Below, one piece after another: positions 3,662 through 14,793 of a DNA stretch of 35,346 bases (position 1 is its first letter; each line of letters begins with the position of its first letter). The notes below the pieces were generated by a model. The model had not been told where the DNA came from, did not search any database, and saw only the letters and a program-made list of their open reading frames with translations. The DNA comes from Neisseriaceae bacterium TC5R-5 (GTDB taxonomy: Bacteria > Pseudomonadota > Gammaproteobacteria > Burkholderiales > Chromobacteriaceae), in assembly GCA_020830965.2 (NCBI GenBank), contig JACCFC020000029.1:689-36034 (forward strand). The letters are read 5' to 3'. Both the position numbers and the translations under genes were made by a program.

Positions 3662-3800
3662 TAAGAGGCCACGAAAAGCCGAAGGTAAATGAGTAAGTTT
3701 AATCGCACCCACTGCCTACCTTTGTGGCCTAATTAATTGTTGATGACCGCTTTTGCTTGGTATCTAAATCGTTATTGCGCTATTAATTTTTAATATCACC

Positions 3801-5207
3801 TTACTGCACACGAATCATCACTTCCGCTCGTGCTTTAAAACTACCAGGTGTCACCGTTTTTCCTGCTATCTTGCCAAATGTTGCAGTAAGGCTTTTGCGA
3901 TAGACTTTATTGCCATCTACCGTACCTGTTTGTGATGCCCCATCTAGCACGGCTTGCCAACCATAGCTTCCCCAGGCAAATGGAACTAGCTGACCATCGC
4001 TTTGCTTCCTTAATGTAACGGACACTCCCTGTGCCACTCCTGCACTGCCGTAATTATCCGAGATTAAGCTGGCTACCCCGCTAGCCGTGGTACTGACACT
4101 CACAATGCCTATTGAATCAAGCCCTTTTTGTACCGGTATCGTTACAGCCATCGCCGTTCCCCCGGTAAGATCTGCACTACTCGAGAAGGAAGCCAAACCC
4201 GCTACATTAGGTTGACAGGTGAAATCAATATCAATCGGTGAGCTGACTGTCTGGCCATTGTTTAACTGTGCCCCGGTCATGCTAGGAAAGCGCACATAAG
4301 GTGTGACATTATCAATTTTGCAACTAGATGAGCGTCGAATACTAAGCCTATCGGTGTACTTAATTGAGGCAATATAAGCATCGGTAAGATGATCCGGGTA
4401 CCATTGAGAGGCATCACGTCCATCATATTGAACCCCACCATTATTACCAATGCCAGGGCCGAAAAATGAAATATAACCGGATGCATAGTTGTAGTTTATA
4501 TCACCGGTACCTGCTTGAGCATTACGCCCATCCCCGCCAACCTGGCCAGGATTTGAGATGGATAAAGCTTCATTAGGAACGCGAATGAGCTCAATCTTAA
4601 CAGGGGTGAAATCTTTGACTTTTACCAAAATCCAACCCTGACTATCTCTATCCAAATTTGTCATTTGGCGCTTTTGCCAGTTAATAGAAAAGTATTTACC
4701 GTCTTTAACATTAGTCAAGCGTGCGACCACCCCTTGATACACCGTGCGATAGCCACCGGAAACGCCATAATTCAAACCGTCTTCATACAGGCCGGTTAGT
4801 GCAAATGGATTGTTAGTGTAGTATTCATAAAGCAAATTGGCATCTTTGGCTTGGCACCGAAATAATACCTGATCGGCATCGTAGCCATTATCAGCCAATG
4901 ATGTTGCTGGCGAAATGGCACTCGCAATGATTGAACCCTGCGGTTGGAAGCTAACATTATTAATATTGATAGTAGAGGGTAAGCCTTCAAACCCACCATT
5001 ACTCCAACTTTGAGTCTTCCATGATTTGTATATTCCTTTGCCCGGTTCGGTATACAGCACATTTGTCGGGGATAATTTTGAGTTATCCGCCTTGATGGCA
5101 TAGCATGTTGCGCCAACGTACGTCGATACCATGAGCAAAGGCGCTACTTTAACCAGTAACAGCCAGCAATGACCTAAGTTTTTGATATTGCTAAGTGAAA
5201 TTGCCAT
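3801..5207 (-). CDS. Fimbrial adhesin-like protein (tip adhesin type)
   Basis: 468 residues. A long signal sequence (about 33 residues, hydrophobic LLLVKVAPLLMVSTYVGA) precedes a mature start at TCYAIKAD. The N-terminal 300 residues would be a receptor-binding or lectin-like region with many aromatic and glycine residues. From about residue 300 (CKIDNVTPYVRFPSM, then IDIDFTCQPNV) the sequence has the character of a chaperone-usher pilin domain, ending in KTVTPGSFKARAEVMIRV, which resembles the C-terminal strand recognised by pilus chaperones. A good ribosome site (AAGGAAG) precedes the ATG on this strand. No chaperone, usher or major pilin gene is adjacent, so it is an orphan; it might use pilus machinery encoded elsewhere. 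The flanks are AT-rich and one side carries a mobile repeat, suggesting transfer. Confidence 0.65.
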   Translation of the reverse strand: MAISLSNIKNLGHCWLLLVKVAPLLMVSTYVGATCYAIKADNSKLSPTNVLYTEPGKGIYKSWKTQSWSNGGFEGLPSTININNVSFQPQGSIIASAISPATSLADNGYDADQVLFRCQAKDANLLYEYYTNNPFALTGLYEDGLNYGVSGGYRTVYQGVVARLTNVKDGKYFSINWQKRQMTNLDRDSQGWILVKVKDFTPVKIELIRVPNEALSISNPGQVGGDGRNAQAGTGDINYNYASGYISFFGPGIGNNGGVQYDGRDASQWYPDHLTDAYIASIKYTDRLSIRRSSSCKIDNVTPYVRFPSMTGAQLNNGQTVSSPIDIDFTCQPNVAGLASFSSSADLTGGTAMAVTIPVQKGLDSIGIVSVSTTASGVASLISDNYGSAGVAQGVSVTLRKQSDGQLVPFAWGSYGWQAVLDGASQTGTVDGNKVYRKSLTATFGKIAGKTVTPGSFKARAEVMIRVQ

Positions 5208-5550
5208 CTGCTTCCTTGTTTGTACTTTGTTTTTTAATAAAAAATAATCTTTATGTGCTTATTGCTAAATCGTAGCAGTGATTATCTATTTTTTTAAAAA
5301 CAGCAAAATAGGAATAGTCTCATTTTTGATTGTTAATGATTGTATTGTTGATTTTGTGAGGAAAAATAGCCTATTCGGGTTTGGCTCCATATTTATAAAG
5401 GGCAGGCCATGGTGACGGAGGAGGGTAGGGGGTTGTGCCGGGGAAGATGCTTCCCAGATGCTGCTGTGGCGAACGAGTGGGGGCTAGGTCGCCGTCTGCT
5501 GTCGGCGCCAACTATGATAGAATCGCGCGCACCTCCATTTAAAATCATCT
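5208..5550. other. Intergenic region between divergent genes
   Basis: The left part (5208-5400) is AT-rich and must hold the promoter of the adhesin-like gene, but no clear pair of boxes stands out. The right part (5405-5510) is abruptly GC-rich and contains a small hairpin GGGAA-GATGC-TTCCC near 5437-5455. A TATGAT at 5513-5518 is a plausible -10 box for the gene at 5551. A long frame through this region (5409-5627) has no ribosome site or protein-like composition and I do not accept it. Confidence 0.4.
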
Positions 5551-5946
5551 ATGAAAAAATCTTCGCTGCTGGTGTTTGTCTTGCTGATACTGGTGTTGCC
5601 AGTGCAGGCCGCGCGGCTTCTGCCTGAGGATATCAAGGCCGGTACTATTCGAAATGTTGCTGATGCCAGCATTGAATTTGTGAAAAAGGATCGTAGTCTG
5701 CTGGAAACGCTGACCGGCATCTTTATTCGCTCCAATCGACAATTTCCGCTTGCACCGGGTTTGCGTATTTTTGATCAAAATAACCGCTTCCTGTTACGTG
5801 GTCAGTTAGCGGGCTTAGAAGGCCAGGCGGTGGCGGTGGGTTTTAATATGCAGGGGCAGATTAATCGTGTTTGGGTATTGTTGCCTGAGGAAGTAGAGCA
5901 ACTGACGCAGCGCGAAGCGGATTTGGCCGCCAGGCAAACGCAGTAA
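5551..5946 (+). CDS. Conserved-looking secreted protein, function unknown
   Basis: 131 residues. The N-terminus MKKSSLLVFVLLILVLPVQA is a classical signal peptide with an AXA-like cleavage site, giving a mature protein starting ARLLPEDIK. The middle (FPLAPGLRIFDQNNRFLLRG) and the C-terminal half (AVAVGFNMQGQINRVWVLLP) look like a small beta-rich fold. No cysteines in the mature part. It ends 54 bases before miaB on the same strand. The residue pattern is typical of small periplasmic proteins next to housekeeping genes, but I do not recognise the family. Confidence 0.7.
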   Translation: MKKSSLLVFVLLILVLPVQAARLLPEDIKAGTIRNVADASIEFVKKDRSLLETLTGIFIRSNRQFPLAPGLRIFDQNNRFLLRGQLAGLEGQAVAVGFNMQGQINRVWVLLPEEVEQLTQREADLAARQTQ

Positions 5947-6000
5947 TTCGAGTAAGCGCTTGAGCAGATAGCGCCGTTAATTTTCTGGAATAAAATTTTA

Positions 6001-7335
6001 ATGAAAAAAGTGTATGTAAAAACTTTTGGCTGTCAGATGAATGAATATGACTCTGACAAAATGATCGATGTGCTCTCCGGTGCGGAAGGTATGATCAAGA
6101 CCGAGCTGCTCGAAGAGGCGGATGTGGTGCTGTTTAATACCTGCAGTGTGCGTGAGAAAGCACAGGAAAAAGTTTTCTCCGATTTGGGCCGGGTGCGGGC
6201 CTTGAAAGAAGCCAATCCTGATTTGATTATCGGGGTAGGGGGCTGTGTGGCCTCGCAAGAGGGTGAGACTATTGTCAAACGTGCTCCCTATGTGGACGTG
6301 GTGTTTGGCCCGCAAACCCTGCATCGTTTACCGGAGTTATTGCGTAATCGCGCCAGCAGTGGCCGCCCGCAAGTGGATATTTCCTTCCCCGAAATCGAAA
6401 AGTTTGACCATATTCCCCCGGCTAAAGTGGATGGGGTTGCCGCCATGGTGTCGGTGATGGAGGGCTGTTCCAAATATTGCTCCTTCTGCGTTGTCCCCTA
6501 TACCCGGGGTGAGGAAGTGTCGCGCCCATTTGATGATGTTCTTACTGAGGTTGCCGGTCTGGCGGCGCAGGGGGTGAAGGAAATCACCTTGTTGGGGCAG
6601 AACGTCAATGCCTATCGTGGAGTGATGGCCGATGGTGAGTTGGCCGACTTTGCTCTGTTGTTGGAGTATGTGCACGAGATTCCCGGTCTGGAGCGCCTGC
6701 GTTTTACCACCAGCCATCCACGTGAGTTCACGCAACGTATTATCGATTGCTACGGTAAATTACCCAAGCTGGTGTCACACTTGCATCTGCCGATACAAAG
6801 TGGCTCTGATCGGGTGCTAAACGCGATGAAGCGCGGCTATACCGCCCTAGAGTACAAATCCACTATTCGTAAACTGCGGGCTTTGCGCCCCGATCTATGC
6901 TTGTCGTCCGATTTTATTGTGGGTTTTCCCGGTGAAACCGAGCAGGAATTTGCGGCCACGCTGAAACTGGTCAAGGACCTGGAGTTTGATTTCAGTTACG
7001 TCTTTATTTACAGCCCGCGCCCAGGGACGCCAGCGGCAAATCTGCCGGATGATACGCCTTATGCTGATAAGCAGCGGCGCCTGGCTGCCTTGAATGAGGT
7101 GGTGGACGCGAAGGGATTTGAAATTAATCGCGCGATGGTTGGTACGGTGCAACGAGTGCTGGTGGAGAATGTGTCGAAAAAAGACCCTAATATGCTGGCG
7201 GCGCGTACCGCGAATAATCGTATCGTCAATTTTGTTGGTCAGCCGCGCTTGGTGCATCAAATGATTGATGTGCGTATTACCGAAGCTCGTGCGCGCACCT
7301 TATTGGGTGAAGTGGTGACGCAGGAAAGCGCTTAA
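6001..7335 (+). CDS. miaB: tRNA-2-methylthio-N6-dimethylallyladenosine synthase MiaB
   Basis: 444 residues, full length. MiaB is a radical-SAM methylthiotransferase that converts i6A37 to ms2i6A37 in tRNAs reading codons that begin with U. The three N-terminal cysteines binding the auxiliary iron-sulfur cluster are at 11 (FGCQMN), 48 (NTCSVRE) and 82 (GGCVAS). The radical-SAM CxxxCxxC is at 156, 160 and 163. The last 60-70 residues form the TRAM RNA-binding domain. The ATG at 6001 gives the standard [18 protein letters not shown] opening. It leads the block miaB-phoH-ybeY-corC-lnt, an arrangement common in gamma- and betaproteobacteria. Confidence 0.97.
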
Positions 7336-7393
7336 GTGTTTTTATTCTATTTACACACCGGGTCTGGTGTTTCTCTTTATCGTAGAAAGCCGC

Positions 7394-8365
7394 ATGACAA
7401 CTCTTGCCGCCGAATCTCTTAGTTTTAAGCCAGTTGATAATGCGCGTCTGGCGCGTGTTTGTGGGCCGTTGGATGAGCATCTGAAACAAATCGAAGTAGG
7501 ATTGGACGTCACGGTACAGCGTCGCGGTGAGCACTTCCGGGTGCAGGGTGAGCAGGCCAGGCTGGCGGTAAATGCTTTGAGCCGCTTGTATCTGCAGGCC
7601 TTGAGTCAGGACTTGTCGATTGATGATGTGCAGCTGTGTCTGGTGGAAGTGCGTCAATTGTTGGCAGAACCCGTGCCACAGTTGGAGGACTCTCCGGTGC
7701 TGATGACGCGGCGTGGCGAGCTGCGCGGACGTACCCCAAGGCAAGCGCGTTATATCAAGGCGATTCAGCAGCATGATATTACCTTTGGAATTGGCCCGGC
7801 TGGTACCGGCAAAACCTATCTGGCGGTAGCCTGCGCCGTGGCGGCGATGGATCAGGATGCGGTTAAGCGTATTGTCCTGGTGCGCCCGGCGGTTGAGGCA
7901 GGTGAAAAACTAGGGTTTTTGCCGGGTGATCTGGCACAAAAGGTTGATCCTTATTTACGTCCTTTGTACGACGCCTTATATGATTTGATGGGCTTTGATA
8001 AGGTGACGCGATTGTTTGAAAAAGGCCTGATCGAAATTGCTCCGCTAGCCTATATGCGTGGCCGTACCCTAAATCATGCGTTCATTATTCTGGATGAGGC
8101 GCAAAACACCACGCCGGAACAGATGAAGATGTTTCTTACCCGCATCGGCTTTGGCTCCAAGGCGGTGATTACCGGCGATGTAACACAGATTGATCTGGCT
8201 CGCCATCAGAAAAGTGGCTTGGTTGAGGTCGAGGCTATTCTGCGCGCGGTTCGAGGTATTCATTTTCACCATTTTCAAAGCGAAGACGTTGTGCGCCATC
8301 CGCTGGTGCAAAGAATTGTCGACGCCTACGATCAGCATCAGAGTCAGCACAATGAAAAAAGCTAA
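7394..8365 (+). CDS. ybeZ: PhoH-like ATPase (YbeZ)
   Basis: 323 residues from the ATG at 7394 (MTTLAAESLSF); an in-frame GTG at 7367 would add nine residues but the extension is not family-like. It is a P-loop ATPase of the PhoH/YbeZ group, thought to work with the endonuclease YbeY in RNA metabolism. Walker A GPAGTGKT is at 134-141 and Walker B ILDEAQN has its aspartate at 234. The N-terminal part is the small RNA-binding-like domain usual for YbeZ. The stop overlaps the ybeY start by 14 bases, which supports co-translation of the two partners. Confidence 0.95.
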   Translation: MTTLAAESLSFKPVDNARLARVCGPLDEHLKQIEVGLDVTVQRRGEHFRVQGEQARLAVNALSRLYLQALSQDLSIDDVQLCLVEVRQLLAEPVPQLEDSPVLMTRRGELRGRTPRQARYIKAIQQHDITFGIGPAGTGKTYLAVACAVAAMDQDAVKRIVLVRPAVEAGEKLGFLPGDLAQKVDPYLRPLYDALYDLMGFDKVTRLFEKGLIEIAPLAYMRGRTLNHAFIILDEAQNTTPEQMKMFLTRIGFGSKAVITGDVTQIDLARHQKSGLVEVEAILRAVRGIHFHHFQSEDVVRHPLVQRIVDAYDQHQSQHNEKS

Positions 8366-8858
8366 GCGTAATGCGGTGCTGCCGCGCTTGGCAGCACGTT
8401 TGTCTTTAACCGTGGTCGCGCAGTGTGCTGGCGAGAATCTGCCAGGGCTCAAGGATTGGCAGCGCTGGTGTCTGGCGGCTTTGCAGCCGGGCGTGCAACA
8501 GGCACAGGTGAGCATTGTGCTGCTTGATGCCGTAGAGGGGCGTACATTCAATCAGCAGTATCGCGGTAAAGACTACGCGACCAATGTATTGAGCTTTCCA
8601 CTGCATGATGAGTCTGCAGGTGGCGGGCAGCCCTTATTGGGCGACTTGGTATTCTGTGTGCCGGTGGTGGCTGCGGAAGCCAGTGAGCAGGGTAAGACTT
8701 TGTCGGCGCATTACGCTCATCTGGTGGTACATGGTATCTTGCATTTGCAGGGCTTCGATCATGAAGAAGAAGGTGAGGCCGAAATGATGGAAAAACTTGA
8801 AAGCAATATCGTCAAACGGCTAGGATATGCCGACCCCTATCTTGAGGAGCAGTGCTAA
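8352..8858 (+). CDS. ybeY: Endoribonuclease YbeY, rRNA maturation factor
   Basis: 168 residues from the ATG at 8352 inside the end of the PhoH gene; a longer upstream opening of the same frame overlaps PhoH too far to be real. YbeY is a zinc-dependent single-strand endoribonuclease acting in 16S rRNA 3' processing and ribosome quality control. The zinc signature HGILHLQGFDH is present, with H127, H131 and H137. The ATNVLSFPL segment near residue 77 is also family-typical. The gene is followed after three bases by corC. Confidence 0.95.
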   Translation: MKKAKRNAVLPRLAARLSLTVVAQCAGENLPGLKDWQRWCLAALQPGVQQAQVSIVLLDAVEGRTFNQQYRGKDYATNVLSFPLHDESAGGGQPLLGDLVFCVPVVAAEASEQGKTLSAHYAHLVVHGILHLQGFDHEEEGEAEMMEKLESNIVKRLGYADPYLEEQC

Positions 8859-8861
8859 GGC

Positions 8862-9722
8862 ATGGAAGACCCCAGTAAACCGCGACCGAGTTGGCTTGAA
8901 CGCTTATCTGCCATGTTGCTGCGCGAGCCGGAAGATCGCGAAGAGTTAATCGAGTTGTTACACAACGCATTTGAACGTAATTTGCTGGATGCCGAAGCGC
9001 TGGGCATGATTGAAGGTGTGCTGGAGGTTAGCGAGCAAACGGTACGAGATGTGATGATTCCACGCAGCCAGATGCATGTGATCAGCAGCAAAGACCCGAT
9101 TGAACGTTTTTTGCCTATGGTGATTGATTGTGGCCATTCCCGTTTTCCGGTGATTGGTGACAGTAAAGATGATGTCTTAGGTGTGTTACTGGCAAAAGAG
9201 TTGTTGCGTTACTTCCACAATCCCGCGCAGTTTGATTTACAAGCCGTGTTACGTCCCGCCGTGTTTGTTCCTGAATCGAAACCCCTGAATGTGTTGTTGC
9301 GTGATTTTCGCGCCATTCACCACCATATCGCTGTGGTTGTGGATGAGTACGGCGGGGTATCTGGTCTGGTGACGATTGAAGATGTGATCGAGCAGATAGT
9401 GGGGGATATCGAGGATGAGTACGATACCGAAGACGATGCGGAAAATATCGTGTCAGTGCGTGGTGAGCAGCGTTATCGGGTGAAGGCACTGACTGAGATT
9501 GAGGATTTTAATCATTATTTCGATACCGAATTTGCCGATGATGAAGTGGATACGGTGGGAGGGCTGGTGATTTCACTATGCGGTTATCTGCCCAAGCGTG
9601 GAGAATCGGTGACGAGTGCCGGTTTGCGTTTTACGGTTTTGCGTGCTGATAGTCGTCGTGTAGAAAGTGTGTTGGTAGAAAAAATACAAGCAGGTAATCT
9701 TCAAATCAGCACTGCCGAGTGA
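8862..9722 (+). CDS. corC: CorC/YbeX-type CBS-domain protein
   Basis: 286 residues. It is a cytoplasmic protein with an acidic N-terminus, a tandem CBS pair (about 70-190; first repeat begins RDVMIPRSQMHVI, second carries VVDEYGGVSGLVTIEDVIEQIVGDI) and a C-terminal CorC_HlyC domain (about 205-280; DFNHYFDTEF and DTVGGLV). There is no DUF21 membrane domain, which separates the YbeX/CorC group from membrane-bound homologues. The family was linked to magnesium and cobalt efflux and, by its operon, to ribosome function. AAGG lies just before the ATG. It sits between ybeY and lnt as in many proteobacteria. Confidence 0.93.
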   Translation: MEDPSKPRPSWLERLSAMLLREPEDREELIELLHNAFERNLLDAEALGMIEGVLEVSEQTVRDVMIPRSQMHVISSKDPIERFLPMVIDCGHSRFPVIGDSKDDVLGVLLAKELLRYFHNPAQFDLQAVLRPAVFVPESKPLNVLLRDFRAIHHHIAVVVDEYGGVSGLVTIEDVIEQIVGDIEDEYDTEDDAENIVSVRGEQRYRVKALTEIEDFNHYFDTEFADDEVDTVGGLVISLCGYLPKRGESVTSAGLRFTVLRADSRRVESVLVEKIQAGNLQISTAE

Positions 9723-9773
9723 TGGTTGTTTCTATGGGTACCGTTCGTTAAATGCGAAGGATGGTCTGTGTTG

Positions 9774-11333
9774 ATGGCAACAGATCATTTTCGCGATCAT
9801 TCCGTCACCATACGGTGGCAATCACATATTGTCTTAATCATGCGTAATGTTCTGTTGCTATTGGCGGCAGCCTTGGCGGGTAGCCTGACGCTGTTTGCCT
9901 TTGCGCCTTATCGTTTGTACTGGTTGATGCCGCTAACGCTCGCAGCACTGCTGACTCTGGCGCAATATCGCCCGCAGCGGGCGTTTTGGCTAGGCTATGT
10001 CTGGGGTTTGGCTGCCTATACCACTAATTTTCACTGGATTTACAACAGCCTGCACGATATCGCCGGTTTACCTGCCTGGATTGCGTTGCCGCTAGTATTC
10101 TTGCTACCCGCCTATCTGGCTTTGTATCCCGGCCTGGTATTGTGGTTGACCATGCGCTGGCTACAACAGCCATGGCAGCGTTGCTTATTGCTGTTTCCAG
10201 CGCTATGGGTGTTGGGCGAATGGCTGCGCAGCTGGGTGATGACTGGCTTTCCTTGGGCGGCAGTGGGTTATTCGCAAATAACGGAAAGCCCATTAGCCGG
10301 CTATACGGCAGTGGGTGGGATTCATCTGGTTAGTTATTTGGTCGCCTTGTTAGCGGGAGCGCTGACGATGTTGCACGGTAGCAGCAAGTTGCTACGTGCT
10401 GGTGTACTGCTGGGGGTCATATTGCTGCTGGGGGGGGGGCAATGGTTGAAAGCGGTGAATTGGACACAGCCGTTAGGTGAGCCAGTACAGGTAGCGCTGG
10501 CACAGGGTAATATCCCACAGCAATTAAAATGGTCGCCAGAAAATCTGGAAATGTCGTTGCGGGTTTATTATCAGATGGTGGCGACGACCAAGGCGGATAT
10601 GATGATCTTGCCGGAAACGGCTTTGCCGCTGTTTCTGGATGATCTGCCCTCTGGCTATCTAACCATGCTGACGGATGCTGCTCGTCGCTCCAATATGGAA
10701 CTGGTGACCGGCGTGCCGCGCCGTCAGGATGGTCTGTCTTACCTGAATGCTGCGGTAGCCTTGACCACACCGGGGCAGCCCTATTATGCCAAAGACCACC
10801 TGGTGCCATTTGGAGAGTTTATTCCCCTGCCTAGTGTGATTGGTTGGATTTATCAATTCATGCAGATGCCAATGTCGGGGTTTAGTCGGGGTGGGCCGAA
10901 TCAGTCTCCCTTAGTATTGGCCAAGCAGAGAGTGGCATTTAACGTCTGTTATGAAGACAGCTTTGGAGAAGAACTGATTGGTCCGGCGGCACGAGCCACG
11001 ATGCTGGCGAATATCAGCAATCTGGCTTGGTTCGGTAAAAGCACGGCGATGAGTCAGCATTTGCAGCTTTCACAAGCACGGGCGCTGGAAAATGGGCGTT
11101 ATATGTTACGAGCTACCAATAATGGCATGACCGCTATTATCCAGCCTAATGGCGAAGTGGCCGCCATTGCTGCACCATTTACCCGCCAGGTTTTGCAGGG
11201 GGCGGTACAGGGACGACAGGGTTTAACCCCGTATATGCGCTATGGTAATTACCCATTGTTGCTGTTACTGATTGTGTTGTTATTGCCGCTGACTGCCATG
11301 TGGGCGGTGCAGCACAGTTCACGCTGGCAATGA
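9774..11333 (+). CDS. lnt: Apolipoprotein N-acyltransferase
   Basis: 519 residues from ATG 9774. Lnt adds the third acyl chain to the N-terminal cysteine of lipoproteins in the inner membrane. The N-terminal half has several membrane segments (LLLLAAALAGSLTLFAF onward) and the C-terminal half is a nitrilase fold with the catalytic E281 (LPETALP), K340 (KDHLVPFGEF) and C392 (NVCYEDSF). A last membrane segment lies near the C-terminus. The start is uncertain: GAAGGA at 9756-9761 suits GTG 9768 or ATG 9774, while ATG 9840 (MRNVLLLL) lacks a ribosome site but gives a compact N-terminus. A run of nine or ten G at 10431-10439 lies inside the gene and could be slippage-prone. Confidence 0.95.
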   Translation: MATDHFRDHSVTIRWQSHIVLIMRNVLLLLAAALAGSLTLFAFAPYRLYWLMPLTLAALLTLAQYRPQRAFWLGYVWGLAAYTTNFHWIYNSLHDIAGLPAWIALPLVFLLPAYLALYPGLVLWLTMRWLQQPWQRCLLLFPALWVLGEWLRSWVMTGFPWAAVGYSQITESPLAGYTAVGGIHLVSYLVALLAGALTMLHGSSKLLRAGVLLGVILLLGGGQWLKAVNWTQPLGEPVQVALAQGNIPQQLKWSPENLEMSLRVYYQMVATTKADMMILPETALPLFLDDLPSGYLTMLTDAARRSNMELVTGVPRRQDGLSYLNAAVALTTPGQPYYAKDHLVPFGEFIPLPSVIGWIYQFMQMPMSGFSRGGPNQSPLVLAKQRVAFNVCYEDSFGEELIGPAARATMLANISNLAWFGKSTAMSQHLQLSQARALENGRYMLRATNNGMTAIIQPNGEVAAIAAPFTRQVLQGAVQGRQGLTPYMRYGNYPLLLLLIVLLLPLTAMWAVQHSSRWQ

Positions 11334-11380
11334 ACTGGCCAGCTTAAATTATCGAGTTTCTCAATCATGGTTGTTTGCTT

Positions 11381-13651
11381 ATGAGTTTGCTATCCGTCCA
11401 AGATCTGGAAAAGGGGTTGTGGGGGTCGGTTGATCTCTTGCGTGATCAGGTTGATCTGTATGACTTTAAAAATCAGGTGTTCGGCCTGTTTATGCTGAAG
11501 CGGTTGAATGATGTGTTTGTCGAGCGTGTCGCTGCGCTGGTTGCAGCAGAAGGGATGAACCGCAAGAAAGCCGAGGCAGCCATCCAGCTACAATATGGGG
11601 CTTTCCCGCAAGAGGCACGCTGGCCAGGTTTGCAAGAGCGCAAGAAGGGTATTGGCGAGGCGCTGGATAAGGCCGTAGCGGCCTTGGAGCAAGCACAAGC
11701 AGCGCTGTCTTTGGGGCTGAGCGCAGTGAGCTTTGCCGGACACAAGCGCTTGAGTGATGAGGTGCTGCATCCGCTAATGTGTCATTTTGGGCAATTGTCC
11801 TTGGCCGATAGTCAACTGGAGCAGCCGGATAAATTAGGTGATGTTTGCGAGCAACTGATCCGGCAATATGCCGATGCCAGTGGCCGCCGGGGCAGCCTGT
11901 TGCTGACGCCCAAACCACTGACACAATTACTATTAAGTTTATTAGCGCCTGAGCCGGGTCAGAGTGTGTATGACCCTACCTGTGGTACCGCCGGTATTTT
12001 GCTGGATGCCGCACGTTATGTGGCGGCACAGCAGGGTGGCTTGCTGGCCAATGGTCAACCCAATCTGCAATTGTTCGGGCAGGAAAAACTGGCTAGCACC
12101 TGGAGCTTGGCCAGACTCTGCTTTCATCTGCATCAGTGGCCGGCAGATATTCGGCTAGGCGATAGTCTGGTTAGCCCCTTGCATGTTGATGCCGAAGGGC
12201 TGTTACAAACTTTCGATCGTGTGGTCGCACGGCCACCCTTTGGTGTGCCGGCTTGGTGGACGCCATTGGAAACCCCACTGGAGCCGAATAAGCGTCGTCC
12301 GAAGAAACTGAAAATTCCTGACTATAAACGTGTACGCGATCCGTATCGGCGTTTGCTCTACGGCATCCCGCCACATGCCAGTGCTGACTTTGCCTTTGTG
12401 CAGCATATGCTGGCCAGTCTGAAGCCAGATGGTCGCATGGTGGTGATGTTACCCAGCGATATCTTATCGCGCCGCGGGGAGGAAGCGAAAATCCGCTCGC
12501 GCCTTTTGTTTGGCCATCGTCATTGGCCGGGGGATCTGCTGGAAACCGTCATTGCCTTACCCCCCGCTTTGTTTTACGGCTCGGCGGCTGCCAGCTGTGT
12601 ACTGGTTTTTTGCAATAACAAGCCCGCACATTTGCAACAAAAAGTGATTTTTATCGATGCCAGCCGTGAGTTTGCCAAAGGCAAGGCACAAAATGGCCTG
12701 CGTCCGCCGGACATCGAACACATTGTCACGGCGTATCGGGGAGTGGTCAGCACGCAAACTGAAGAGCAACAATATTGCCGTTTGGTTGGTCTGGAAGAAA
12801 TTCGCCAGCACGACGGTAAATTGGATGTGGCTCGTTATATTGATAATGGCGAAGCACGGCCGCTGGTCGATAGCGAGGGACTGCAAAGCGAGCTAAGCGG
12901 TTTGCAAGAGGAAGAGCTGGCAGTGGATGAACGTTTACAGTCCTATCGCGATGAGCAAGGCTGGCAGTTGGCTGTTCAGGAGACCGACACGGTGTTGGCG
13001 CTGCTTGATGACAAGCTGGAATTACTGGCCGCACAGTTGGCTGCCCGCTACCAGTTGCTGCCGATGCAATTGGATAGCTGGTTTTGTCGTGGCGTGGGCA
13101 TACGGCGGCTGGGTAAATGGCAAGCACATACCGCATTTAAGCCATCCCCATTAGGGGTGGTGCCGGCCAATTGGGAGCTACGTCCCTTGGGTGAACTGAG
13201 CCAGTTACTGAGTACCGAGTTACTGGCATCGGCAATGGCGGGTGATATGAGCGATAGTCAGCCCTTGCCAGCCGCCACCTTCTGTTACCACTCGCAACAA
13301 CTGCTAGAGCAGGGTTTGTTGCTGCAGAATGAAGTAGAAGAGTCACTGCCTGATGCCGATAGAGTGGTGTTTGCTATCGATCAAGAGAGTCTGTTACCAG
13401 CTTATTTGTACTGGTATAGCCGCAGCACGATTTGGCAGCGTAGCCTATGCCGGATAGGGGCGGATCTGGAAGGGGCCGAGATCAGCTATACCCAGTTGGC
13501 CACCGTGTTATTGCCTTTGCCACCAATGAATGAACAGCGCAAGTTGTTAACTGAGCTGGAGCCATTACAAGCATCCTTACAGGCTTTGCAACAGCAAGTG
13601 GAGCAATGTCAGCTTTGGCGTCAGCAGTTGATGGAGAGTTTGCCTGAATGA
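11381..13651 (+). CDS. HsdM-like N6-adenine methylase with HsdS-like C-terminal half; catalytic motif altered
   Basis: 756 residues from ATG 11381 (an upstream TTG at 11375 is less likely). Residues 1-130 resemble the helical HsdM N-terminus (KNQVFGLFMLKRLND). Residues 150-450 are an N6_Mtase domain: LLTPKPLTQLLLSLL, then the SAM-binding stretch DPTCGTAGIL from D198. The catalytic NPPF is replaced by R284-P-P-F (codon CGG), so adenine methylation is doubtful. After a charged linker, residues 590-756 look like half an HsdS specificity subunit (GVVPANWELRPLGELSQL, and PLPPMNEQRKLL near 711-722, then a coiled coil). No HsdR or other restriction gene is nearby. It overlaps glycerate kinase by four bases and follows lnt by 47, so it sits in a housekeeping block. 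It may be a degenerate solitary methylase or a DNA-binding protein. Confidence 0.75.
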   Translation: MSLLSVQDLEKGLWGSVDLLRDQVDLYDFKNQVFGLFMLKRLNDVFVERVAALVAAEGMNRKKAEAAIQLQYGAFPQEARWPGLQERKKGIGEALDKAVAALEQAQAALSLGLSAVSFAGHKRLSDEVLHPLMCHFGQLSLADSQLEQPDKLGDVCEQLIRQYADASGRRGSLLLTPKPLTQLLLSLLAPEPGQSVYDPTCGTAGILLDAARYVAAQQGGLLANGQPNLQLFGQEKLASTWSLARLCFHLHQWPADIRLGDSLVSPLHVDAEGLLQTFDRVVARPPFGVPAWWTPLETPLEPNKRRPKKLKIPDYKRVRDPYRRLLYGIPPHASADFAFVQHMLASLKPDGRMVVMLPSDILSRRGEEAKIRSRLLFGHRHWPGDLLETVIALPPALFYGSAAASCVLVFCNNKPAHLQQKVIFIDASREFAKGKAQNGLRPPDIEHIVTAYRGVVSTQTEEQQYCRLVGLEEIRQHDGKLDVARYIDNGEARPLVDSEGLQSELSGLQEEELAVDERLQSYRDEQGWQLAVQETDTVLALLDDKLELLAAQLAARYQLLPMQLDSWFCRGVGIRRLGKWQAHTAFKPSPLGVVPANWELRPLGELSQLLSTELLASAMAGDMSDSQPLPAATFCYHSQQLLEQGLLLQNEVEESLPDADRVVFAIDQESLLPAYLYWYSRSTIWQRSLCRIGADLEGAEISYTQLATVLLPLPPMNEQRKLLTELEPLQASLQALQQQVEQCQLWRQQLMESLPE

Positions 13652-14793
13652 AAATCGTCATCGCACCCGATTCCTATAAAGAAAGCCTGACCGCCATGCA
13701 AGTGGCTAGCGAAATCGAAGCAGGATTTCGCGAAATTTTTCCCGATGCCGAGTACTGCAAGATGCCGATGGCAGACGGGGGGGAGGGTACAGTGCAGGCG
13801 ATGCTGGATGCTAGCGATGGGCAGTGGCAACAGCTCAGCGTTACTGGCCCTTTAGGCCAGGTCGTGTCGGCATTTTACGGACTGACCGGCGGCACGCACA
13901 TGGCCGTGATAGAAATGGCGGCAGCCAGCGGGCTGGCATTGGTGCCGCTGGCGCAACGCAACCCTTTGCTGACGACCAGTCGTGGCACGGGGGAGCTGAT
14001 TTTAGCGGCATTGGATGCAGGAGCGTGGCATTTTGTGTTGGGTATTGGTGGTAGTGCCACCAATGATGGTGGGGCTGGCATGCTGCAAGCCTTAGGCATC
14101 GGTCTGCTCGATGAGGCCGGTGAGTCATTGGGGCCCGGTGGCGCGGAACTGGCTCGATTAGCACGTATTGATTTATCAGGTCTGGATAGCCGCTTATCGC
14201 ATTGCCGTTTTGATGTGGCCTGTGATGTCAGCAATCCCCTGTTGGGTCCGCAGGGTGCATCGGCAGTATTTGGCCCACAGAAGGGGGCTGACTCGCAGAT
14301 GGTGGCTCAGCTGGACGCTGCTCTGGCGCACTTTGCTCATATTATTGTTCGCGACTTAGGGGTGGAGGTAGCCCATATACCGGGGGCGGGTGCTGCTGGT
14401 GGTATGGGCGCGGCCTTATTGGCTTTTCTGCATGGCCGTTTGCGTTCCGGCAGCGATATCATTGCCGAAGCCATTGGCTTGGATGCAGCGGTACAGGGTG
14501 CGCAACTGGTGTTGACCGGAGAAGGCCGTATTGACAGTCAAAGCATACAAGGGAAGACGCCGATTGGTGTGGCGCGTGTGGCTCAGCGTTATGGTGTGCC
14601 TGTGATTGCGCTGGCCGGTGGTTTGGCGAGGGATAGGGCCGTGGTGCATCAATATGGTTTGGATGCAGTGTTTGGCGCAGTCTGCCAACCATGCTCCGTG
14701 GTAGACGCGATGGCGGAGGCTGCGTTCAATGTCCGTAGCGCGGCACGCAATATTGCCGCTACGCTTAAGTTAGGGATGGGCTTAGCTAACTAA
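13648..14793 (+). CDS. glxK: Glycerate kinase (GlxK/GarK family)
   Basis: 381 residues, normal length. It phosphorylates D-glycerate, probably to 2-phosphoglycerate, feeding glyoxylate or glucarate breakdown products into glycolysis. Family marks seen: the N-terminus MKIVIAPDSYKESLTA, MADGGEGTVQAML near 48-60, the GGSATNDGGAGMLQALG loop near 134-150, GAAGGMGAALLAF near 250, and TGEGRIDSQS near 290. The ATG overlaps the stop of the HsdM-like gene (ATGA), so translation is coupled. No glyoxylate carboligase or tartronate semialdehyde reductase is adjacent. The exact paralogue name (GlxK or GarK) cannot be fixed from sequence alone. Confidence 0.92.
   Translation: MKIVIAPDSYKESLTAMQVASEIEAGFREIFPDAEYCKMPMADGGEGTVQAMLDASDGQWQQLSVTGPLGQVVSAFYGLTGGTHMAVIEMAAASGLALVPLAQRNPLLTTSRGTGELILAALDAGAWHFVLGIGGSATNDGGAGMLQALGIGLLDEAGESLGPGGAELARLARIDLSGLDSRLSHCRFDVACDVSNPLLGPQGASAVFGPQKGADSQMVAQLDAALAHFAHIIVRDLGVEVAHIPGAGAAGGMGAALLAFLHGRLRSGSDIIAEAIGLDAAVQGAQLVLTGEGRIDSQSIQGKTPIGVARVAQRYGVPVIALAGGLARDRAVVHQYGLDAVFGAVCQPCSVVDAMAEAAFNVRSAARNIAATLKLGMGLAN

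Follow-up and report, generated by a model that had tools for sequence, protein, structure and literature searches.

The window, by which we mean the whole 35,346-nucleotide stretch of DNA analysed, encodes a protein in which HsdM of Type I restriction-modification systems is fused to half of an HsdS and the catalytic motif is lost. We observe the fusion, the loss of the motif in all six species that carry it, the grouping of the six in a single clade, purifying selection among five of them and a strongly acidic recognition segment (TRD). Judging from its sequence, we think it fairly probable that the protein is a non-methylating, dimeric pseudo-methyltransferase that retains SAM or SAH binding and works through contacts with proteins. 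Among the literature matches listed, with most subscription papers outside their scope, we saw no account of an HsdM-half-HsdS protein that is catalytically broken yet retained.

HsdM is fused to half of an HsdS

The reading frame is open throughout, from an ATG at 11381 to a stop at 13649-13651, and encodes 756 amino acids. Pfam searches, HsdS alignments and the sequence itself bear out the original prediction of an HsdM/half-HsdS fusion with RPPF and a CGG codon at residue 284. HsdM_N is followed by N6_Mtase, in the order of the HsdM family (Table 1), and the score of the fusion against the NCBIfam hsdM equivalog TIGR00497 is 140.5 bits, below the cut-off of 242.75. From about residue 530 onwards the window copy has no Pfam Methylase_S match at E<=0.01, and the C terminus of one orthologue matches Methylase_S at E=0.01, below the gathering score. 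The same part matches the HsdS of a sister Type I system in genome G001 (E=4e-14 by BLAST against a two-sequence set), PADLOC Specificity_I models at residues 644-753 (E=1.4e-10) and 533-605 (E=5.8e-9) and, weakly, three solved HsdS chains (E 3.7e-6 to 1.8e-5). Aligned to the G001 HsdS, it comprises the central coiled coil with a system-specific linker, a TRD1-like segment and the second coiled coil. The layout is thus that of an M-half-S protein (HsdM, HsdS coiled coil, one TRD, second coiled coil), with the fold of the TRD not resolved in the structural model.

The AlphaFold model of the fusion has a mean pLDDT of 80.5 and a pTM of 0.66, so that the placement of the domains is uncertain. Most of the M domain is modelled with confidence and has the M fold. 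Block means are moderate to good over the two long helices (68-89 for residues 532-570 and 72-87 for 716-753) and poor over the TRD (42-68 over 601-710), so the model cannot decide on site-specific DNA reading. Foldseek returned PacII M1 (7VRU), the m6A subunit of a non-canonical Type I system, as the top solved fold match (TMt 0.86), and PacII M1 is also the top sequence match to residues 1-293 and 319-517. Unlike the fusion, it has NPPF and AGEF intact and is part of an M1M2S complex (PMC9613975).

Similar single chains have been built in the laboratory. The engineered CC398-1 M-half-S protein likewise carries HsdM, one TRD and a conserved region in one chain, and is described as active, methylating ACCN5GGT, whereas the natural fusion is without the catalytic Asn and has an acidic TRD; a laboratory-built HsdM-half-HsdS fusion is also reported to dimerise (PMC6158711). 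The engineered EcoKI MS fusion joins HsdM and HsdS in a single chain as well, but it contains a full HsdS and is functional in restriction-modification, unlike the natural fusion (PMC3510504). Activity and dimerisation of the laboratory-built HsdM-half-HsdS proteins show that such an architecture can work, and the natural protein would probably form dimers too. Of the residues at the M-M interface of PacII, D25 is kept in the fusion, but R252 aligns with Leu259 in every one of the six copies, so dimerisation may differ.

Table 1. Features of the fusion gene and its surroundings, in window coordinates.
Feature	Position	Strand	Evidence
Pseudo-methyltransferase gene, HsdM fused to half HsdS, 756 aa	11381..13651	+	ORF, Pfam, orthologues
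Leader/start element GGTTGTTNGCTTATGASTTTGC, common to window and five orthologues	11369..11390	+	Pattern search
HsdM_N domain, residues 9-136	11405..11788	+	Pfam E=4e-14
N6_Mtase domain, residues 148-490	11822..12850	+	Pfam E=2.3e-68; fold of PacII M1
Degenerate GEFY pocket motif, residues 172-175 (SLLL in window, GAFS in orthologues)	11894..11905	+	Alignment
Motif I SAM loop DPTCGTAG, residues 198-205, largely retained	11972..11995	+	Sequence and alignment
Broken motif IV ARPPF, residues 283-287 (AQLPF in five orthologues)	12227..12241	+	Alignment
D360, Asp in 6/6 fusions, Gly in 40/40 aligned canonical HsdMs	12458..12460	+	Alignment
Long helix 532-570, HsdS central coiled coil	12974..13090	+	HsdS alignment and model
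TRD-like segment (residues 597-710), shortened and strongly acidic, net charge -11	13169..13510	+	Charge comparison; low model confidence
Long helix 716-753, HsdS distal coiled coil	13526..13639	+	HsdS alignment, solved HsdS chains, model
lnt, upstream neighbour in window (not so in five orthologues)	9726..11333	+	Pfam/neighbour reading
Glycerate kinase (glxK), ATGA overlap with fusion at 13648-13651	13648..14793	+	Sequence and Pfam

The catalytic pocket is broken and the SAM side is largely kept

Functional Type I m6A/m4C methyltransferases are expected to carry NPP[FY] at motif IV, and all six fusions depart from it. In the window residue 284 is Arg, encoded by CGG at 12230-12232, a codon that differs from both AAC and AAT at all three positions. 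We surveyed motif IV in 175 HsdM-like rows (duplicates included), of which 12 are the six fusions and 2 do not cover the column. The Asn is found in 0/6 fusions versus 161/161 readable non-fusion rows, again with duplicates included. Likewise, the AGEF/AAEF pocket motif is absent, the corresponding residues being GSLL in the window and GGAF in the orthologues.

The loss extends beyond these two motifs. We examined 73 HsdM columns with a conservation of at least 90% among 40 canonical rows. All six fusions keep 48 of them, 10 are lost in some and 15 in all six, although one of the 15 (column 305) falls in an insertion and is doubtfully aligned. Departures from these columns number 18-22 per fusion, compared with a median of 2 and a highest value of 19 when a canonical row is set against the rest; the distant canonical rows L002 and L020 show 16 and 19 departures, yet keep the Asn. 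The residues lost in all six include N284, E173, Y175 and S288, and F174 is additionally lost in the window copy. Retained in the fusions are the aromatic F287 and, on the SAM side, D198, P199, G202, G233, Q234, E235, T176 and P177. Derived residues common to all six are C156, Y163, A204 (in place of the motif I Gly), C247 and D360.

Counted on the alignment, positions 173, 174, 284 and 287 correspond to E170, F171, N276 and F279 of PacII M1. The PacII pocket mutants F171A and N276A/F279A are reported to be impaired in methylation, and N285, the counterpart of this Asn in the m4C subunit of PacII, forms a hydrogen bond with the amino nitrogen of the target (PMC9613975). Replacing the N of the TspGWI NPPY motif by A almost completely abolished modification (PMC3968444). 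The original prediction that methylation should fail is thus supported, and methylation by the fusion very probably does fail.

The SAM loop was also predicted to be largely kept, and DPTCGTAG agrees with this. Part of the loop that touches SAH in PacII (M1 164-174) is altered in the fusion. We considered a broken SAM loop and did not adopt it: GTAG differs from GTGG, but the other SAM-side residues are kept. EcoKI HsdM has a similar loop. SAM binding would follow from the retained residues, and a SAM-binding role for the fusion is possible.

The kept SAM-side residues and F287, together with the purifying selection described below, could also suit a fusion that still methylates with Gln or Arg in place of Asn, or one that uses an RNA or protein substrate. 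The Asn is, however, present in every readable relative examined, the second pocket motif is broken as well, the N to A change in TspGWI left almost no modification (PMC3968444), and the use of two different replacement residues argues against one new chemistry. We regard continued methylation as very unlikely.

The recognition segment is shortened and strongly acidic

The TRD-like segment has a net charge of -8 to -13 in the six fusions. As controls we used 53 TRD segments from a set of 91 HsdS-like ORFs of the loci retrieved, each cut at a coiled-coil motif; their mean charge is +1.6 (sd 3.2, minimum -4, maximum 12) and none is at or below -6. The two TRDs of the sister HsdS have charges of +2 (TRD1) and -3 (TRD2, mildly acidic). 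The HsdM part of the fusions (+2 to -13) is no more acidic than that of five canonical HsdMs (-8 to -26), indicating that the acidity is local to the TRD. Where the sister TRD1 has the basic stretch GSVRVRIYY, the alignment places LEGAEISY for the window and VEGAEFGF for four orthologues, and compared with that TRD1 the segment is shorter by about 21 residues in the window and by 12-13 in the orthologues. Net charge bears only indirectly on DNA binding.

Such a shrunken and acidic TRD weakens the idea, put forward in the original prediction, of a sequence-specific DNA-binding regulator or epigenetic reader, in which a dimer would bind a palindromic split site via its two TRDs without methylating it. 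The layout does resemble that of the engineered M-half-S fusion, which recognises a palindromic split site (PMC6158711), and the TRD-like segment is in frame in 6/6 fusions. Against this stand a charge that lies outside the -4 to +12 of the 53 controls, the acidic or neutral residues in place of the basic stretch, the shortening and the lack, in nine genomes, of a second copy of the leader element within 2 mismatches. We consider a reader of this kind unlikely, and site-specific DNA reading has probably been lost.

The fusion probably arose once, and five copies are under purifying selection

Full-length orthologues, 52-54% identical to the window copy, are present in 5/18 other genomes of the genus examined, so that the carriers, including the window genome, number 6/19. 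A family search of 61 genomes detected a full-length fusion in none of the 42 outside the genus, one of which (G058) has a canonical relative. The window genome gave the only full-length match among 399 genomes sampled from the order and among 369 sampled from the class; the five other carriers are evidently outside these samples, which therefore show rarity, not absence. Matches in plasmids (E<=1e-30) and phages (E<=1e-20) cover 80% of the query in 0/732 and 0/30 records, respectively. In a scan of genome contigs the best 80 of 569 relatives contain no fusion, and their best segments are at most 38% identical. Seven long HsdM ORFs of the order (722-835 aa) were checked and have no Methylase_S match at E<=0.01. 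A 579 aa ORF at locus L122, picked up by a regular expression, was set aside, as it had no PADLOC match and did not truly resemble the ORF it was compared with.

Among canonical HsdMs, the closest that we found belong to genomes G001, G058 and G404 (the L117/L118/L124 subfamily) and are 48-50% identical over fusion residues 4-528; unlike the fusion, they have NPPF and GEFY. Each is accompanied by a separate downstream ORF with a 4-base overlap, which Pfam identifies as HsdS in G001 and BLAST as HsdS-like in G058; in G001 hsdR and a YgjP-like gene follow. In a tree of 42 HsdM parts, made from 46 rows after four long ones (L002, L020, L128 and L130) were dropped, the fusions form a clade (100/100) and group with the three sister HsdMs (100/100), with 0.67 changes per column on the stem before the fusion clade. 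A quicker tree of all 46 rows recovered the same two groups (SH-aLRT 100). In an lnt tree of the 19 genus members, rooted by midpoint only and with the lnt of the window on a long branch, the six carriers lie on one side of one branch (100/99). The simplest history would be a single fusion event and a single loss of catalysis, both preceding the divergence of the six species, with the product then kept in all six.

The expectation that RPPF would be conserved across genera next to lnt and glxK failed three times over: one species has R at this position and five have Q (AQLPF in every orthologue), carriers were found in a single genus, and the neighbours differ. Close homologues with NPPF, which were named as the sign of a single decayed copy, exist in the sister canonical subfamily and not among the orthologues. 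A single decayed copy is rejected, since the Asn is missing in the five orthologues too and purifying selection is evident.

Among the five orthologues (window copy excluded) dN/dS is 0.088-0.292, with a median of 0.185, and they are under purifying selection, which supports the original suggestion that the protein has been kept for something. Control medians for neighbouring genes are 0.159 (MCP), 0.151 (LysR), 0.122 (ALDH) and 0.042 (MetQ); the fusion is slightly less constrained than these, yet far from neutral. Between the window and the orthologues whole-gene synonymous change is saturated in 5/5 pairs, which leaves selection on the branch of the window copy poorly measured; for the N-terminal domain alone, dN/dS is 0.10-0.17 at a dS of 1.4-2.4. 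The C-terminal part is the least conserved (pN 0.40-0.44 versus 0.20-0.22 in the N-terminal domain).

The long stem and the fast evolution of the C-terminal part would suit a functionless, decaying relic of a Type I system. However, the gene is intact in 6/6 species despite saturated synonymous sites between the two lineages, dN/dS among the five is low, the five derived residues are found in all six copies, and the gene persists in the window genome although this is smaller by about 1.5-1.8 Mb than the genomes of the other five carriers. A relic is therefore extremely unlikely.

The carriers also differ in composition and size. The window has a G+C content of 50% and its genome measures 3.5 Mb, while the five sister carriers have 64-67% around the gene and genomes of 5.0-5.3 Mb, a marked shift inside one genus.

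Neighbours and leader of the gene

In the window the fusion begins 47 nt after lnt, and the predicted ATGA overlap with glycerate kinase is present. The housekeeping-operon setting was seen in the window genome only. The lnt regions of 12 other genus members have no glycerate kinase (>=40% identity) beside lnt, and 5/5 orthologues are flanked by a divergently oriented MCP gene on one side and a convergently oriented aldehyde dehydrogenase gene on the other; MetNIQ-like genes lie further out. In 4/5 orthologue genomes the fusion and lnt share a contig, about 29-33 kb apart, and in G002 they lie on different contigs. Since its neighbours differ between the two lineages, a function linked to lnt or glycerate kinase is unlikely for the gene, and we reject a conserved lnt/glxK operon role.

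No restriction subunit was predicted nearby, and a Pfam scan of 19 other window ORFs, shorter and overlapping ones excluded, turned up neither HsdR nor any further Type I gene. Neither hsdR nor a separate hsdS was found among 10 ORFs around one orthologue, and the other four have an identical gene order. Within these scans the fusion thus lacks the linked hsdR and separate hsdS of a Type I restriction-modification system.

An orphan of this kind might serve in anti-restriction or act as a dominant negative, joining or titrating other Type I subunits or mimicking DNA with its acidic TRD. Structures of Type I enzymes in complex with the DNA mimics Ocr and ArdA have been solved, and another contig of the window genome carries a Type I system. 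The HsdM of that genome is, however, just 27% identical to the fusion; a sister HsdM together with a full-length HsdR match is found only in G001 among the six carriers (G002 has partial HsdR matches), and retention in all six does not track a cognate system. We hold this explanation to be improbable.

The leader element spans 22 bases around the start codon and has 0-1 mismatches at the gene in each carrier. It is near-identical across saturated divergence and by eye contains no evident Shine-Dalgarno sequence. It had no match in the 3 non-carriers searched (of 13). Across the nine genomes we found one further match, with 3 mismatches, in G005, and a reversed-pattern control also gave one, in G000, the window genome. 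A regulon controlled through the leader element is thus unsupported.

Other Type I loci

In genome G001 a second, different pseudo-methyltransferase fusion lies at L117:11437-13257 (- strand), upstream of the canonical hsdM-hsdS-hsdR set. It joins the C-terminal half of N6_Mtase to Methylase_S, reads VVPPF at motif IV and by eye has no SAM loop. It had no match at E<=1e-25 in 300 genomes of the order, in a search without a positive control genome. On contig C85 of the window genome, positions 3694-10738 (- strand) of locus L119 have the Type I order hsdM, hsdS, a 408 aa ORF (AAA_13, E=2.2e-12) and hsdR, an arrangement reminiscent of the prrC anticodon-nuclease locus. Neighbouring hsdM pairs, one with NPPF and one with NPPY, were seen at L012, L121, L131, L132, L134, L135, L140, L141, L145, L147, L151 and others, as in published m6A/m4C non-canonical Type I systems (PMC9613975).

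Discussion

We propose that the protein started as an hsdM-hsdS pair of the subfamily that still has NPPF in G001 and G058, and that an in-frame HsdM-half-HsdS fusion would have formed in the common ancestor of the six species. The catalytic pocket and, probably, the DNA-reading face of the TRD would have been lost next, an order that we infer. The fold of HsdM would have been retained, along with most residues of the SAM loop and both of the coiled-coil helices that half-HsdS proteins use to dimerise. The product would be an (M-half-S)2 pseudo-methyltransferase that no longer methylates, still binds SAM or SAH and works via protein contacts. Its partner and purpose are guesswork on our part: it may regulate in response to SAM, or it may serve as a decoy for other complexes that handle or restrict DNA.

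In eukaryotes, some methyltransferases that are catalytically dead, such as METTL14, are known to have regulatory roles. We suggest, tentatively and with more doubt than conviction, that the fusion is a Type I restriction methyltransferase turned by domestication into a chromosomal pseudo-methyltransferase: a dimeric clamp that binds SAM and whose former recognition domain, now acidic, touches either a protein partner or the clamp's own DNA cleft. If this is true, one lineage of bacteria has turned a defence enzyme into a regulator. If real, the protein would be a warning that annotation as a member of the HsdM family does not imply a methylation mark, and it would offer a clean case for asking what restriction enzymes can be reused for.
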